Positions 4,309 through 10,719 of a DNA stretch of 64,000 nt are shown here, piece after piece (positions within the stretch are counted from its first letter, which is position 1; the number at the start of each line of letters is the position of its first letter). This stretch comes from Xylanimicrobium pachnodae JCM 13526 = NBRC 107786 (lineage in GTDB: Bacteria > Actinomycetota > Actinomycetes > Actinomycetales > Cellulomonadaceae). The position numbers and the translations under genes are program-made. Below the pieces are notes generated by a model that worked only from the letters and a program-made list of their open reading frames with translations, ran no database searches and was not told the origin of the DNA. Location: positions 124,001-188,000 of the forward strand of contig BCWJ01000002.1 of NCBI GenBank assembly GCA_001592145.1, in the 5' to 3' direction.

Positions 4309-5127
4309 TCACGCCTTGCGCATGTAGGCGCGCACGGCCAGCGGGGCGAAGATCGCCGCGATGCCGACGGCGCCCAGCAGCGTCCACCCGACGTCGGCCC
4401 CGAAGACGCCGTCGTTCGCGAGCTCGCGGATCGCGGTGATCAGGTGGGACAGCGGGTTCCACTCGGCCACGACCCGCAGCCAGTCGGGCAGGGTCTGCGT
4501 GGGGACGAACGCGTTCGACAGGAACGTCAGCGGCATCATGATGAGCATCGCGATGCCCTGCACGGTGCCCGCGGTGCGCGCCGTGACGCCGAGCAGGGCC
4601 CAGCACCAGCTCAGGGACCACGCCGTGAGGATGACGAGCAGCCCGGCCAGCACGATGGCCCCGCCGCCGCCCGGGCGCCACCCGATCATGACGCCGACGA
4701 GCATCGTCAGCACCGTCAGGACGGCGTAGCGGATGGTGTCGGTGAGCAGCGCCCCGGCCAGCGGCGCGATGCGGGCCATGGGCAGGGACCGGAACCGGTC
4801 GAAGACGCCGGTGTCCATGTCCTCACGCAGCTGGGTTCCCGTGACCACGGACGCCTGCACGACTCCCTGCACGATGATCGCGGGGATGAGGGCGGGCAGG
4901 TAGTCGGTGACGCTCCCGGCGATCGCCCCACCGAACAGGTAGGCGAACATGAACGTGAACAGGAACGGCATCACGAGCACGTCGGCCCACTGCTCGGGGG
5001 TGCGGCGCAGCCGGAGCAGGGCCCGGTAGGCCATCGTCAGGGTGTGGGACAGGGTCTCGCGCGGCCCGACGTGCCGGGAGAGCTGTGCCGGGAAGACGGC
5101 GGGCTGGGTCTCGATGATCGCGCTCAC
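4309..5127 (-). CDS. ABC-2 type transporter permease, DrrB-like
   Basis: The 272-residue product is an ABC-2 membrane subunit of the daunorubicin-resistance (DrrB) type. It has about six hydrophobic segments, and the conserved loop REDMDTGVFDRFRSLPMAR sits about residues 95-115. The late segment ending LVVAEWNPLSHLITAIREL is also typical. Such permeases pair with DrrA-like ATPases to export drugs or lipids. The start is GTG 5127, which overlaps the ATPase stop in GTGA; a longer open frame upstream is a shadow of the ATPase. The two therefore form one coupled transporter operon read leftward. The substrate is unknown. Confidence 0.88.
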   Translation of the reverse strand: MSAIIETQPAVFPAQLSRHVGPRETLSHTLTMAYRALLRLRRTPEQWADVLVMPFLFTFMFAYLFGGAIAGSVTDYLPALIPAIIVQGVVQASVVTGTQLREDMDTGVFDRFRSLPMARIAPLAGALLTDTIRYAVLTVLTMLVGVMIGWRPGGGGAIVLAGLLVILTAWSLSWCWALLGVTARTAGTVQGIAMLIMMPLTFLSNAFVPTQTLPDWLRVVAEWNPLSHLITAIRELANDGVFGADVGWTLLGAVGIAAIFAPLAVRAYMRKA

Positions 5128-6119
5128 GCCGCGACCTCCTCGGTCTCGTGCTCGGCGGACGCGGCGTCGTCGGTCGCGTGGCCGGTGATGGTCAGGAACA
5201 CCTCGTCGAGGGTGGGCTTGGTGACACTCACCTCGGCCAGGGGGATGCCGCGCTCGCGCAGGGCGAGCAGCAGGTCGGTGACGCGGTCGGGGTCCCCCAT
5301 GGGTGCCGTGATGCGGGCCGCCTCGGGGGTGGCCGTGGCGCTCACGCCCAGCACCTGCTCGATGACGGTGAGGGCCACGGCCGTCTGCGCCGTGTCGGCC
5401 AGCCGGAGCTGGAGGGCGGCCGTGCCGACGGACGACTTGAGCTCGTCGGCGGTGCCCTCGGCCACGACCCTGCCGCGGTCGATGACGGCGATCCGGTCGG
5501 CGAGCTGGTCGGCCTCGTCGAGGTACTGCGTCGTGAGCAGCACGGTCGACCCGCCTGCCACCAGACCCCTGATGACGTCCCACATCTGCCCGCGGGTGCG
5601 CGGGTCGAGCCCCGTGGTGGGCTCGTCGAGGAAGATCAGCGGCGGGTGCGCGATCAGGCTCGACGCGAGGTCCAGGCGGCGGCGCATCCCGCCGGAGTAC
5701 TTGCCCACGGGCCGCTTGGCCGCCTCGGCGAGCCCGAACGCCTCCAGCAGCTCGCGCCCCTTGAGCTTCGCGGCGCGGTGGGACAGGCCCAGCAGGCGAC
5801 CGAAGACGATCATGTTCTCGATGCCCGAGACCTTCTCGTCGACGCTCGCGTACTGGCCGGTGACCCCGATGAGCTGGCGCACGGTATGGGGCTCGCCGAC
5901 GACGTCGTGCCCGAAGATGCGGGCGTTGCCGCCGTCGGGCCTCAGCAGCGTGGCGAGCATGGAGATGGTGGTGGTCTTCCCGGCACCGTTCGGGCCCAGG
6001 ACCCCGTAGACGGTGCCGGTGTCCACGCGCAGGTCGACGCCGTCGACGGCGCGGTTCGTGCCGAAGACCTTGACGAGGCCGTCGGCCTCGATCGCCCGGT
6101 CGGGCAGGGTGGATGGCAT
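5124..6119 (-). CDS. ABC transporter ATP-binding protein, DrrA-like
   Basis: A 331-residue ATPase with Walker A GPNGAGKTT (42-50), the Q-loop segment GVTGQYASVDE (about 86-95), ABC signature YSGGMRRRLD (141-150) and Walker B LIFLDEPTTGLD (161-172). The sequence after about residue 235 is the C-terminal domain typical of DrrA/NodI-type exporters. ATG 6119 has an AAGGGGA site about 7 nt upstream. It is the partner of the overlapping DrrB-like permease. Upstream, 95 bp away, is the Clp-N gene on the same strand, so the HTH/Clp-N pair and the exporter could be one transcript, though a separate promoter in the gap is equally possible. Confidence 0.9.
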   Translation of the reverse strand: MPSTLPDRAIEADGLVKVFGTNRAVDGVDLRVDTGTVYGVLGPNGAGKTTTISMLATLLRPDGGNARIFGHDVVGEPHTVRQLIGVTGQYASVDEKVSGIENMIVFGRLLGLSHRAAKLKGRELLEAFGLAEAAKRPVGKYSGGMRRRLDLASSLIAHPPLIFLDEPTTGLDPRTRGQMWDVIRGLVAGGSTVLLTTQYLDEADQLADRIAVIDRGRVVAEGTADELKSSVGTAALQLRLADTAQTAVALTVIEQVLGVSATATPEAARITAPMGDPDRVTDLLLALRERGIPLAEVSVTKPTLDEVFLTITGHATDDAASAEHETEEVAA

Positions 6120-6214: not shown

Positions 6215-6751
6215 TCAGCTCGACGTGGCGGCGCCCTGGGTGAGCGCCGCGAGCAGTGCGTGCCGGTCGAAGCCGGCCTGAACGAGAGCACGCGGCACGG
6301 TGCCGAGCTCCGCGGAGACGATGGCGGCGAGGAAGTCGGCGGCGCCCGGACGCTGGGCGCGCCCCCGACGGCCCCGGAACGTGCGCACCCCGCGCTCCCA
6401 GACGTCCTTGGCCGACGCACCGAACCGCGGCTGGCGAGCCACCCGGGTCGCGGTCAGGCGCGACGGGTCGGGCAGGGTGATGCCGATGGCGGCCAGCGTC
6501 CGGGCACGCTCGGACTTGAGCGCGGCGTCGAACGCCTCGTAGGTGAGGCCCGCGCTCGCGAGCGCCTGCGTCGCAGCGTTGGTGCGGTCGAAGAGGAAGG
6601 CGAGCAGCAGGTGCTCAGCCTCGATCGCGGCCGAGCCGCGGTTGGACGCCTCGACGGTCGCGACGCCGATGGCGGAGCGCAGATCGACGCGGAACGCCTG
6701 GTCCTCGAACGGGTTGGACCGGGGGTTGGGCCGGCCCTGGTGCTCAACCAT
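6215..6751 (-). CDS. Clp N-terminal-domain-only protein
   Basis: A 178-residue protein made of two Clp_N-like repeats without any AAA+ ATPase domain. Repeat one contains AEHLLLAFLFD with LASAGLTYEAFDAAL; repeat two contains AADFLAAIVSAE with LVQAGFDRHALLAAL. In ClpA/ClpC this domain binds adaptors and substrates. Stand-alone versions are common in actinobacteria but their job is not established; acting as an adaptor or decoy for ClpC is inference. Its start overlaps the stop of the upstream HTH gene by 8 nt, so the two are coupled. The unit lies behind twin palindromes, and a DrrAB-like exporter follows. Confidence 0.8.
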   Translation of the reverse strand: MVEHQGRPNPRSNPFEDQAFRVDLRSAIGVATVEASNRGSAAIEAEHLLLAFLFDRTNAATQALASAGLTYEAFDAALKSERARTLAAIGITLPDPSRLTATRVARQPRFGASAKDVWERGVRTFRGRRGRAQRPGAADFLAAIVSAELGTVPRALVQAGFDRHALLAALTQGAATSS

Positions 6752-6980
6752 TGCGCCTCCTGAGGTCGATGCCGGCCTGCTCGACGCGGCGCAGGTGCTT
6801 CTTGTGGACGGCCTGGCGGGTGACGCCGAGCGCGGCGGCCACCTGGGCCCAGGACCAGCCCTCGCGCAGGGCGCGCTCGACGCCGGCGTCCTCGAGCTGG
6901 TCCGCCAGCTCGCGCAGCGCGACGACGGCCGCCAGGTCGTCGGCGATCCCCCCTGTGGGTGAGGGCGCTTCCGGGGTCAT
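6744..6980 (-). CDS. Small helix-turn-helix protein
   Basis: The 78-residue product has one recognisable HTH at about 43-66 (SWAQVAAALGVTRQAVHKKH), resembling sigma-70 region 4 or Homeodomain-like folds, after a helical lead of about 25 residues. The short basic tail ends DLRRRNG. ATG 6980 is taken as start; another in-frame ATG at 6992 falls inside the first palindrome. Neither has a good ribosome site, so the mRNA may be leaderless. It overlaps the Clp-N gene by 8 nt. The palindromes directly upstream suggest autoregulation by this protein, with Clp-N as a regulatory partner or target; this is inference. Confidence 0.75.
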   Translation of the reverse strand: MTPEAPSPTGGIADDLAAVVALRELADQLEDAGVERALREGWSWAQVAAALGVTRQAVHKKHLRRVEQAGIDLRRRNG

Positions 6981-6982
6981 GC

Positions 6983-7028
6983 AAGCAACCATAGTTGCTT
7001 ATTCACCAGATAAGCAACCCTGGTTGCT
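6983..7028 (-). promoter_or_regulatory. Twin palindromic operators of the HTH/Clp-N module
   Basis: Two near-identical inverted repeats lie just upstream of the HTH gene: 6983-7000 (AAGCAAC-CATA-GTTGCTT) and 7013-7028 (AGCAACC-CT-GGTTGCT). Their centres are 29 bp apart, close to three helical turns, so dimers bound to both would sit on one face of the DNA. The sites lie within 50 bp of the start, where a promoter is expected. They also begin 12 bp from the stop of the dinB-like gene. Confidence 0.75.
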
Positions 7029-7040
7029 AAGACGTGCCCC

Positions 7041-7538
7041 TCAGCTCGCGGCTCCCCCGGCGCGGACCTGCTCGCGCAGGATGTCGGCGTGCCCGCAGTG
7101 CTGCGCCAGCTCGGCCACCATGTGCAGGTACACCCACCTCAGCGGGAGCGGGCCACGCCGGTTGCCGGTGACGACGTCGTCCAGGTCCATCCCCGCCACC
7201 GCACGCCGGGACGCCGCGCACGCCGCCGCGTAGTCCGCCAGGACGGAGGCGACCGTGTCCTCCTCCGTGAGAACGAACGACTCATCAGGCGTCGCGGGGA
7301 TGCCGATCTCGGCGCGTGAGCGGCCCATGACGGCCTCGTCGAACCAGACCTTTTCGACGAACACAGCGTGCTTGACCAGGCCCAGCAACGTCGTCCTCGA
7401 CGGGACCAGACGCCGCCGCACCTGCTCCTCGGACAGCCCGTCCAGCGACGCGGCGAGCAGCGCACGGTAGTCGTCCACGACGATCGGGAGCTGGTCGTCG
7501 ATCGGGAGGAAGAACGTCTCGGGGTCCAGGCGGTGCAC
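7041..7538 (-). CDS. DinB-family (DUF664-like) protein
   Basis: A 165-residue four-helix protein of the DinB/YfiT superfamily. It has SLDGLSEEQVRRRLVPSRTT near residue 30, KHAVFVEKVWF (about 56-66) and the C-terminal HMVAELAQHCGHADILRE. Histidines in these segments correspond to the family's metal ligands. Actinobacterial members include mycothiol-dependent transferases, so thiol-linked detoxification is possible but not shown. It starts 24 nt after the permease stop on the same strand and may be the last gene of the iron-uptake operon. The start at 7538 follows from the conserved N-terminus. Confidence 0.8.
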   Translation of the reverse strand: MHRLDPETFFLPIDDQLPIVVDDYRALLAASLDGLSEEQVRRRLVPSRTTLLGLVKHAVFVEKVWFDEAVMGRSRAEIGIPATPDESFVLTEEDTVASVLADYAAACAASRRAVAGMDLDDVVTGNRRGPLPLRWVYLHMVAELAQHCGHADILREQVRAGGAAS

Positions 7539-7562: not shown

Positions 7563-9692
7563 CTACCGGCGCGACCGGGCCAGCAGCCACACGAAGTACG
7601 GCGCCCCGAGGAGCGCGACGGCGAGCCCTGCGGGTAGCTGAGCGGGCGCGATCACGGTGCGCCCCAGCAGGTCCGCCAGACCGAGGAGCACGGCACCCAG
7701 GAGCATCGCGACGGGCAGCACGCGGGCGTGCCGGCCGCCGACGAGCGCCCGTGCGGCATGCGGTGCCACCAGGCCGACGAACCCGACGACGCCCACGGCA
7801 GTGACGCTCGTGGCGGCGAGGGCCGCGGCCACGGCCAGGACGAGCAGCCGGGTCCGCTCCAGCCCGACACCCACCAGCCGGGGGGTGTCGTCGTCGAGCG
7901 CGAGCAGGTCCAGCTCGCGCGGCATCGACGCCGCGAGCGGAACCGCCAGGGCGAGCAGGACCAGGACGGGCAGCACCTCGGCGAAGCCGCGCCCATAGGT
8001 GGTGCCGGACAGCCAGGTGTAGATGCGGGGCGTGTTCCACGGGTCGGAGCGCAGCAGCAGGAACGTCGTCAGTGCCGCCGTCAGGTTCCACAGGCCGATG
8101 CCGACGAGCACGAGCCGGTCGGCGAGGAGCCCGGACCGCCACGCCAGCAGGTAGACCAGCGCGAACGCGACCATGCCCCCGATCACCGCCGCGACCAGCG
8201 TGGCACCCGTCCCGGCCGCGATCCCGTTGCCCCAGGCCGTGCCGGCCACGGAGGTCACGACGATCACCGCCCCGAGGCCGGCGCCCCCGGTGATGCCCAG
8301 GATGCCGGGCTCGGCCAGCGGGTTGCGGGCGGTGGCCTGCACCATCGTCCCGGACAGCGCGAGCGCCGCCCCGGCGACCACCGCGGCCGCGACGCGGGGG
8401 GCGCGCTCGTCGAGGGCGAACCGCACCACGGCCGGTCCCTCGCCCTGCAGCCACAGGGCGATGTCCCCCGTGCGCAGCCAGGTGGACCCGGCGAGCAGAC
8501 CGGCGACGACCACGACGACGGCGAGCGCGGCCACGGCCACCACGACGACGACGAAGCGCCGCGTGCTGCGCGGCCCGCCGACCGCGGCGGGCGGGCGGCG
8601 CGTCGGCCCGGCGTCTCGGAGCCGGCGCGCGAGCAGCACCATGATCACGGCGCCCACCACGGTGGTCGCCACCCCGGTGGGCACCGCCAGCGCCGCCTGA
8701 GCCCCCAGCAACGCCCGGACGATCGCGTCGGCGAGCACGACGACGAGGGAGCCGAGCAGACCCGCGGCCGGCAGGAGGAACGCGTGGCGGTGCAGGGCTG
8801 GGACGAGTCCCGCGAGCAGGCGGGTGATCGCCGGCGCGGCCAGGCCCACGAACCCGATCGGCCCGGCCAGCGTGATGGCCGCCGCGGTCAGGACGACGGC
8901 CAGCACCACCCCGAGGGCGCGGGTCGCGCGGACCGGGATCCCCAGGGCCCCGGCCGTGTCGTCTCCCAGGCCGAGCACGTCGAGGCGTCGCGAGAGCAGC
9001 AGCCCGCCGGCCGTGGCGAGGACGACGACGGGCAGCGCACGCCAGAACGCGGTGAGGTCGAGCTGGCTCAGCGAGCCGCTGCCCCACGCGAACAGCCCGG
9101 TCGTCTCGGTCTGGAACAGGATCAGCAGGGCTGAGACGGCCGCTTGGAGTGCCATCGCGACGGCGGCCCCCGCCAGGACCAGGCGGCTGCCTCCGGCCCC
9201 GGCTCCACCGGCGAGACCCAGCACGAGCGCGGCCGCCGCGAGCCCGCCGGCGAAGGCGACCGCACCCGACGCCCAGAACGGCACGGTCAGGCCGAAGGCG
9301 GCGACGATGACGACCGCGAGGTAGGAGCCCGCGGTGACCGCGAGGGTGTCGGGTGACGCGAGCGGGTTGCGCGAGACGGACTGGAAGAGCGCGCCGGCCA
9401 CCCCGAGGGCGAAGCCGACGGCCACGCCTGCCGCAAGGCGCGGCAGGCGTGAGCCCACCAGGATGTCGCGGACCGCCACGTCGCCGTCGCTGCCGCCGGT
9501 CAGCAGCCCGAGCAGCTCGCGCGGACCGACGTCCGACGTGCCCTGGGTCAGGTGCCAGGCCCCGACCAGGACGACGGCGACGACGAGCGCGAGCACGACT
9601 GCCGTTCCGGTGACGCGGCCCACGCGCGTCGGAAACGGCACGCCGATCGGTGCCGACGGCGGCGCATCGGCGACGGGCTTCGTGGCGGTCAT
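7563..9692 (-). CDS. FhuB-like fused FecCD permease of an iron-siderophore ABC importer
   Basis: The 709-residue protein is two FecCD permease domains joined head to tail (about 25-350 and 370-709), as in FhuB. Each half carries the family signature: SRNPLASPDTLAVT in the first half and ARNPLAEPGILGITGG in the second. The paired GFVGLAAPAITRLL and GFVGLVAPHAARAL motifs, which contact the ATPase, are also present. A fused permease supplies both membrane subunits, explaining why only one permease gene is here. ATG 9692 lies 4 nt after the binding-protein stop; an open frame extending upstream is a shadow of that gene. It should move a ferric siderophore across the membrane. Confidence 0.92.
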   Translation of the reverse strand: MTATKPVADAPPSAPIGVPFPTRVGRVTGTAVVLALVVAVVLVGAWHLTQGTSDVGPRELLGLLTGGSDGDVAVRDILVGSRLPRLAAGVAVGFALGVAGALFQSVSRNPLASPDTLAVTAGSYLAVVIVAAFGLTVPFWASGAVAFAGGLAAAALVLGLAGGAGAGGSRLVLAGAAVAMALQAAVSALLILFQTETTGLFAWGSGSLSQLDLTAFWRALPVVVLATAGGLLLSRRLDVLGLGDDTAGALGIPVRATRALGVVLAVVLTAAAITLAGPIGFVGLAAPAITRLLAGLVPALHRHAFLLPAAGLLGSLVVVLADAIVRALLGAQAALAVPTGVATTVVGAVIMVLLARRLRDAGPTRRPPAAVGGPRSTRRFVVVVVAVAALAVVVVVAGLLAGSTWLRTGDIALWLQGEGPAVVRFALDERAPRVAAAVVAGAALALSGTMVQATARNPLAEPGILGITGGAGLGAVIVVTSVAGTAWGNGIAAGTGATLVAAVIGGMVAFALVYLLAWRSGLLADRLVLVGIGLWNLTAALTTFLLLRSDPWNTPRIYTWLSGTTYGRGFAEVLPVLVLLALAVPLAASMPRELDLLALDDDTPRLVGVGLERTRLLVLAVAAALAATSVTAVGVVGFVGLVAPHAARALVGGRHARVLPVAMLLGAVLLGLADLLGRTVIAPAQLPAGLAVALLGAPYFVWLLARSRR

Positions 9693-9696
9693 CGGG

Positions 9697-10719
9697 TCAG
9701 TGCGCGAAGACGTCGACGTACGCGTCGACGATCTTCTCCGCCGAGCGGGGCCCGCCGAAGGTCCAGATGTGCTCCGGGAACGCGTGCACGCGACCCTCGG
9801 CCACCGACGGCAGGTTCGCCCACACGGCGTTCTTCGCCAGCGCGGCGGTCCAGTCGTCACCGTCCTGCGTGCCCGTGTACAGGAACGTCGCATCGCCGAC
9901 GGCGGACATGCCCTCGATGTCGGACTGACCGAGGCCGTAGGCGGGGTCGACGTCGCCGGTCCACGCGTTGGTGAGGCCGATCTTCTCGCCGAGCTCACCG
10001 ACGAGCGACCCCTGACCGAACGGGCGCAGCGACACGTTGCCGCCGTCGACCCAGCCGTCGAAGTAGACGAAGCCGGTGTGCTCGGGCGCGGCCGCCACGA
10101 TCTTCGCCGTCGCATCGGCGAGGTGCGCCTCGAACTCGTGGGTGACGCTCGCGGCCCGGTCGGCGCGGCCGGTCGCCTGGGCGATGAGGTCGAACGTGGC
10201 GAGCATGTTCGCGATCGGGTCCGCAGCGTCGGCGCCCTTGGTCGCCAGGACCGGCACGTCGTAGGCCTCGAGCTTCGCGATGATCTCGTCGTCCGGCGTG
10301 TACGCCTCGATGATCACCAGGTCGGGGTCGGCGGCGTAGAGGGCGTCGAGGTTCGGCTCACCACGGGTCCCGACGTCGGCGACCCCCTCGGGGAGCTTCT
10401 CCGCCTCGTTCCACGTCGTGTACCCGGCGACGTCGGCGACGGCGACGGGCGTGACGCACAGCGTGAGCGCGTCCTCCACCTGCTGCCACTCGAGCACCGC
10501 GACGCGTTCCGCGGGCTTGTCGAGCTCGACGGTGCGACCGAACGAGTCCGTCAGCGAGACGGGTCCGGTCGAGGTCGAGACGTCGGCACACTGGTCGGTG
10601 GCGTTCTCGACCGGGGCGGCGGCCGCCGCACCGGGGTCGGTCGTGCCACACGCCGACAGGCTCAGGGTGAGCACGAGGGCGGCGGAGCCCGCCAGGGACG
10701 CGGTTCTGCGCAGAGACAT
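9697..10719 (-). CDS. Iron-siderophore ABC transporter substrate-binding lipoprotein
   Basis: A 340-residue protein with a lipoprotein signal peptide: MSLRR, a hydrophobic core and lipobox LSAC with Cys24. A FecB/FepB-type type-III periplasmic-binding domain follows (DSFGRTVELDKPAERVAVLE near 60, PDLVIIEAY near 150). It captures the iron complex outside the membrane and hands it to the fused permease. It lies between the ATPase gene (20 nt away) and the permease gene (4 nt away), all leftward, so this is one transporter. The exact siderophore cannot be read from sequence; hydroxamate or citrate types are both possible. Confidence 0.9.
   Translation of the reverse strand: MSLRRTASLAGSAALVLTLSLSACGTTDPGAAAAAPVENATDQCADVSTSTGPVSLTDSFGRTVELDKPAERVAVLEWQQVEDALTLCVTPVAVADVAGYTTWNEAEKLPEGVADVGTRGEPNLDALYAADPDLVIIEAYTPDDEIIAKLEAYDVPVLATKGADAADPIANMLATFDLIAQATGRADRAASVTHEFEAHLADATAKIVAAAPEHTGFVYFDGWVDGGNVSLRPFGQGSLVGELGEKIGLTNAWTGDVDPAYGLGQSDIEGMSAVGDATFLYTGTQDGDDWTAALAKNAVWANLPSVAEGRVHAFPEHIWTFGGPRSAEKIVDAYVDVFAH

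Follow-up and report, generated by a model that had tools for sequence, protein, structure and literature searches.

A proposed split relative of the ClpC2 autorepressor, with twin operators and an adjoining ABC exporter, in Xylanimicrobium pachnodae

A Clp N-domain protein without an ATPase, encoded together with a small helix-turn-helix (HTH) protein and followed by an ABC exporter, raises the question of what such a gene pair regulates and to which signal it would respond. A locus of this kind is present in the 64,000-nucleotide stretch of X. pachnodae DNA that was analysed here as a whole (the window). ClpC1 is targeted by drugs; ClpC2 is known to act as a sponge and so to weaken the action of cyclomarin. 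In our assessment the locus is probably a split ClpC2-type system, in which an HTH autorepressor has Clp_N as its ligand-sensing partner and in which Clp_N and the exporter would be induced together. New here is that split pairs are widespread and fall into three classes, set apart by half-site, HTH tail and cargo, and that only in the class of the window do they often stand before an ABC exporter or, failing that, a PF00144 hydrolase.

Gene pair, operators and embedded promoter

The two-gene module recognized in a first-pass annotation is real: the genes of a 78-aa HTH protein and of a Clp_N-only protein share an overlap of 8 bp, and a Pfam run on the 178-aa Clp_N protein found no AAA domain and hence no ATPase. 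The features of the locus are the following:

4309-5127, reverse strand: ABC-2 (DrrB-like) permease gene; PF01061 clear, TIGR01247 61 against a cut-off of 223
5124-6119, reverse strand: gene of a DrrA-like ABC exporter ATPase, the likely output; TIGR01188 361 bits, cut-off 312
6215-6751, reverse strand: gene of the Clp_N-only protein, 178 aa; Clp_N 5.1e-9 (Pfam)
6744-6980, reverse strand: gene of the proposed HTH autorepressor, 78 aa, start ATG at 6980; HTH_23 1.7e-6 (Pfam)
6984-6999, reverse strand: start-proximal (downstream) predicted operator, AGCAACCATAGTTGCT (AGCAAC-TATG-GTTGCT), containing the -10
6988-6993, reverse strand: putative -10 TATGGT; spacer to the -35 18 bp, ATG 6980 after 7 nt
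7012-7017, reverse strand: putative -35 TTGCTT (family consensus TTGACN), weak by plain consensus
7013-7028, reverse strand: upstream predicted operator, AGCAACCCTGGTTGCT (AGCAAC-CAGG-GTTGCT), containing the -35
7041-7538, reverse strand (as the module): gene of a mycothiol-transferase/DinB-type protein, the upstream neighbour

The HTH protein consists of a long dimer-type helix (residues 12-39), HTH helices at 44-51 and 55-68 and a C-terminal basic arm, GIDLRRRNG; an in-frame ATG at 6992 would extend it to 82 aa, the gene then overlapping the operator. The upstream neighbour lies on the same strand, so that the operators serve the direction of the module only. Just upstream of the module, positions 7563-10719 of the reverse strand, read by eye, hold one or more FecCD-like permease genes together with a gene like those of substrate-binding proteins, which looks like a system for iron-siderophore uptake.

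Both AGCAAC palindromes seen at first pass directly upstream of the pair were confirmed at a distance of 29 bp, start to start, and no other site in the 4.0-Mb genome matches the strict pattern AGCAACC-NN-RGTTGCT. We compared 80 named actinobacterial loci from GTDB genomes, in which the Clp_N gene usually comes next after the HTH gene. Two CAAC-n4-GTTG palindromes are present in 57 of these and one in 17, the twin sites being 27 bp (12 loci), 28 bp (32) or 29 bp (13) apart, compared to the 29-31 bp proposed beforehand for orthologous pairs; shuffled upstream regions gave 0.09 loci with one site and 0 with two. The reverse test, a search of 118 genomes with the twin DNA motif alone and independent of protein homology, returned 26 places versus 0 for the reversed-pattern control, and 18 of the 21 places examined sit 0-30 bp before a strong member of the HTH family (two have a weak match and one has none). 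A chance origin of the palindromes is excluded, because twin sites are conserved at homologous loci and absent from shuffled sequence. The first-pass idea thereby survived the check, set in advance, of whether the palindromes are missing at orthologues. These results argue very strongly that the HTH protein binds the palindromes, which the first-pass annotation had predicted to be its operators, and they make autorepression by this protein a near certainty. Relatives of the HTH protein were found by profile in 279 of the 394 genomes of the taxonomic class. At G130:C1:2762750 and G103:C19:131400 (L162, L180), twin CAAC/GTTG sites are followed by a weak match to the HTH family or by none that could be detected.

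The same genome contains a paralogous HTH/Clp_N pair of canonical form (L035:2076-2902, on G000:C3), which adjoins sucC/sucD-like succinyl-CoA synthetase genes and is divergent from them. Its operators, GTCAAC-n4-GTTGAC at 28 bp from each other, are the sole two of this kind in the genome. The two copies thus have different operator codes, each of which is found genome-wide solely before its own pair.

The palindromes also appear to embed a promoter. Of the 80 loci, 64 have a -35, mostly TTGACN, supplied by the right-hand half of the upstream palindrome; a TANNNT-like -10 follows within the downstream palindrome after 16-18 bp (17-18 bp in 60 loci), and the start codon lies 6-7 nt past this -10 in 62 loci. 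A plain sigma-70 consensus scan of the window detected no promoter because both TTGCTT and TATGGT are weak, and the promoter position comes from conservation instead. We predict a leaderless transcript from a module promoter of which both elements lie under the operators. At first pass the spacing of the operators had been equated with about three helical turns; the distance of 29 bp holds, but the embedded promoter accounts for it at least as well. Helical phasing was dropped as the main cause, since the observed 27, 28 and 29 bp match a -35/-10 gap of 17-18 bp and phasing is unneeded, though it may contribute.

Kinship with ClpC2 and the reading of DNA

The arrangement had been thought to be without a described mechanism, which is incorrect, given that ClpC2 has been described with autorepression, twin operators and relief by cyclomarin (PMC10030653). 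This mycobacterial protein (Rv2667) joins a four-helix N-terminal domain to a Clp N-domain and represses its own gene from CGTCAAC-n5-GTTGACG sites, often two, at a promoter proposed to be leaderless; cyclomarin relieves this repression, and the drug is soaked up by ClpC2 (PMC10030653). Clp-linked regulation, as suggested at first pass, thereby has its precedent in a fusion of the same two domains.

The profile of the HTH family matches the ClpC2 N-terminal domain (8ADA, E 0.001) and RelI (9SDC, 9e-7), and in mycobacterial-type genomes it recovers fused ClpC2 at E ~1e-9, into the recognition helix GVTKQAAQKRF. These fused proteins count 240-255 aa and have twin n5 operators 28-29 bp apart, and a fused ClpC2-type sequence (..GASWTDIGKSMGVTKQAAQKRF..) displays a full HTH. 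The homology of the window's HTH domain to ClpC2 covers residues 4-72 and extends through the next helix. When the HTH model by itself was used for a fold search, no match stood out, and 8ADA and RelI were absent among the matches listed; this is no evidence against kinship, because the profile finds both. For the Clp_N protein, AlphaFold predicts a complete two-repeat N-domain (pLDDT 89), for which the fold search gave Z 18.4 and rmsd 1.8 to the ClpC1 N-terminal domain 8b9u, and 18.1 to 3wdc (with cyclomarin). When the Clp_N protein was searched singly against PDB sequences, chance matches to DinJ came out on top; this fold search supersedes them.

The module thus has in common with ClpC2 the HTH-type N-terminal domain, the two-repeat Clp N-domain without ATPase, and two CAAC/GTTG palindromes over the promoter with the ATG right after. 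It differs in being encoded by two overlapping genes instead of one fused polypeptide and in having AGCAAC-n4 instead of GTCAAC-n5 half-sites; moreover, the ligand residues are conserved in ClpC2 and eroded in the window's class, and the parts of PMC10030653 used here describe no exporter cargo for ClpC2. Judged from sequence, the module is a split, diverged relative of ClpC2, related in both domains, and we have not filed it as ClpC2.

This kinship bears on which domain reads the DNA. In the published ClpC2 model, DNA is contacted by Arg185/189 in the Clp_N domain and not by the N-terminal domain (PMC10030653). The crystallised N-terminal fragment ends at residue 72, at a turn, and leaves the recognition helix outside. 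In the window's class, the position of Arg185 is occupied by Ala in 11 and by Arg in 7 of 30 proteins. Because this arginine is often lost while the operators persist, and because the HTH has a gene of its own, the comparison favours reading of the DNA by the HTH rather than by Clp_N, which in part contradicts the published model. Since nature has assigned the reading of DNA and of ligand to different proteins in the split form, the DNA-recognition site of ClpC2 could be tested with the HTH protein alone.

It had also been suggested that Clp_N brings the HTH protein to ClpC or masks it; ClpC might then degrade the repressor, and Clp activity would set the level of repression. A Clp_N domain co-translated with the HTH protein agrees with this proposal, but the sequences tested contain no pointer to degradation and, to our knowledge, Clp N-domains have adaptors and substrates as their binding partners, whereas docking of such a domain on ClpC is not known. 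Since, in addition, the fused form, ClpC2, is a DNA-bound repressor, and ligand binding to Clp_N is the precedent that has been tested, we consider delivery or masking improbable.

RelI (Rv2664), the antitoxin of RelSI in M. tuberculosis, carries a homologous HTH domain, of which the authors noted the similarity to ClpC2 (PMC13284704). Together with the overlapping genes, this relative recalls a toxin-antitoxin pair, with a small HTH antitoxin first, a toxin second and operators over the promoter. However, the second protein of the module is a Clp N-domain and not a nuclease, whereas RelI has the RelS toxin as its partner; RelI was reported without evidence of DNA binding (PMC13284704) and no palindromes have been shown for it, and both fused ClpC2 and a derepressed mutant are harmless to growth (PMC10030653). 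A toxin-antitoxin function is therefore very improbable.

Classes of split pairs and their cargo

Three classes of split pairs were distinguished. Class A has a short HTH protein, a Clp_N protein of ~180 aa and GTCAAC sites. Class B, to which the window belongs together with Agromyces, Leifsonia, Nonomuraea, Nocardia, Streptosporangium and others, has an HTH tail ..GV.LRRR, a Clp_N protein of 150-190 aa ending ..GTVPRALALAGV.. and AGCAAC half-sites, its operators often forming the mirror pair AGCAAC..GTTGAC / GTCAAC..GTTGCT. Class C (Microbacterium, Arthrobacter and others) combines an HTH tail ..PRRN with a Clp_N fused to a Polyketide_cyc2 domain. Half-site type and HTH tail are associated near-perfectly (47/47 versus 26/27), which is suggestive only, as the arm pattern was drawn up with the data already in view and two changes suffice on the tree. 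The tree places the window within class B, in a Micrococcales group with support of 100/98. Within its own family, class-B Clp_N occurs in 2 of 150 genomes, the second copy (L181) having AGCAAC operators 28 bp apart, and this patchiness suggests horizontal spread.

The Clp_N-Polyketide_cyc2 (SRPBCC) fusion occurs at L106, L113, L118, L121-L123, L125, L127, L130, L132, L137, L144 and L148, assigned by a Pfam run at L118 and by length and likeness at the other loci; it possibly joins a small-molecule pocket to the Clp N-domain. A further HTH subfamily (..GLTWAEIAVLLGVSKQAVHKKYGGSRF..; L026, L027, L028, L030, L031) has no Clp_N gene behind it; some of its loci share twin GTCAAC operators, and in L027 an ABC transporter comes next.

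The classes differ as well in what lies behind Clp_N. In class B, an ABC ATPase gene comes immediately downstream at 12 of 34 loci, compared to 0 of 30 in class A and 0 of 15 in class C. Orthologues of the window's DrrAB (70-80% and 55-85% identity) adjoin the pair in L069, L072, L073, L074 and L110, all of the Micrococcales group, in line with the earlier suggestion that the DrrAB-like exporter is a possible output. Like DrrAB exporters, the window's ATPase passes TIGR01188; unlike them, its permease stays under the TIGR01247 cut-off and the exporter is tied to an HTH/Clp_N cassette. Nonomuraea and others have a different ABC-2 exporter (35-40% identity; PF00005 and PF01061 in L085). At L076, L078, L079, L081 and L087, all class B, a PF00144 (beta-lactamase/S12) hydrolase gene, Pfam-checked at four of these loci and by position only at L078, takes the exporter's place and overlaps the Clp_N gene or stands close behind it. 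PF00144 is the Pfam counterpart of peptidase family S12. One S12 member, BogQ, is tied to peptide-antibiotic resistance (PMC9541196 and its reference list). Interchangeable export and hydrolysis cargo would fit an antibiotic-induced switch. Conversely, about half of the class-B loci lack both an exporter and a hydrolase next to the pair, which counts against induction of a dedicated output, as does the gap of 95 bp between Clp_N and drrA in the window.

Ligand sensing and the proposed mechanism

Residues F110 and E119 of the window's Clp_N match the cyclomarin contacts F80 and E89 of ClpC1. F15 may lie at ClpC1 F2, by the range of the structural superposition only and at low pLDDT, and in the MAFFT alignment F2 is lost. 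Class-B Clp_N domains mostly lack the cyclomarin-contact pair F2/F80, with mostly W, L, I, V or M at the F80 position, whereas the paralogue in the same genome and most of class A retain it. The ligand of the window's Clp_N is not predictable, and because its class has mostly lost this pair it need not be a ClpC1 drug. The loss of the pair also counts against our preferred explanation, as does the fact that ilamycin and ecumicin bind ClpC2 without inducing it.

In the split ClpC2-type mechanism that we prefer, HTH dimers would bind both palindromes, cover the -35 and -10 of their own leaderless promoter and keep it shut. The co-translated Clp_N would be the counterpart of the C-terminal domain of ClpC2 and the sensing partner of the HTH protein, a contact that we infer from the natural fusion. 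Clp_N, or its complex with the HTH protein, would bind a ligand of the ClpC N-domain type, either an exposed peptide or a peptide antibiotic that targets ClpC, and repression would be relieved; Clp_N would accumulate and could mop up the ligand, and in class B the downstream ABC exporter would be induced as well and remove it. By analogy with ClpC2, Clp_N is the likely sensor; relief by ligand with induction of the exporter is what ClpC2 and the gene order lead us to infer, and export induced by a drug is plausible.

As an alternative, the pair might sense proteotoxic stress: free Clp_N would bind unfolded or ClpC-bound substrates, and overload would titrate it off the HTH protein and cause derepression, with no drug as ligand and the exporter as a passenger. 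This would agree with the decay of drug-contact residues in the window's class, with the cold induction of clpC3 in M. smegmatis given in secondary descriptions, and with the ~twofold heat induction of clpC2 and the holdase role proposed for ClpC2 (PMC10030653). The heat effect is small, however, compared to the 263-fold induction with cyclomarin (PMC10030653), and exporter or S12 hydrolase cargo recurring in the window's class only is unexpected for a general folding sensor, which makes stress sensing unlikely.

The ligand-relieved, split ClpC2-type mechanism can be extended, with rather less than even confidence, to class B as an exchangeable drug switch, in which an HTH protein and a decoy Clp N-domain no longer tied to ligands of the ClpC1 type would read a peptide antibiotic and turn on a dedicated exporter or S12-type peptidase. 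This extension implies that ClpC2 reads DNA via its N-terminal HTH, with the recognition helix past residue 72, and not mainly via Clp_N. If split relatives do extend across most Actinobacteria, and if exporters and hydrolases are indeed coupled to one class, decoy Clp N-domains would be a general part for the sensing of peptide antibiotics.

ClpC3 of M. smegmatis is likewise a free Clp N-domain protein, said in secondary descriptions to share the ligand site of ClpC1; these descriptions mention no HTH partner or operator, unlike the pair in the window. A mycobacterial-family genome (G098, at L149) contains, besides a fused ClpC2, a split HTH/Clp_N pair with one GTCAAC operator, which is perhaps the source of ClpC3.
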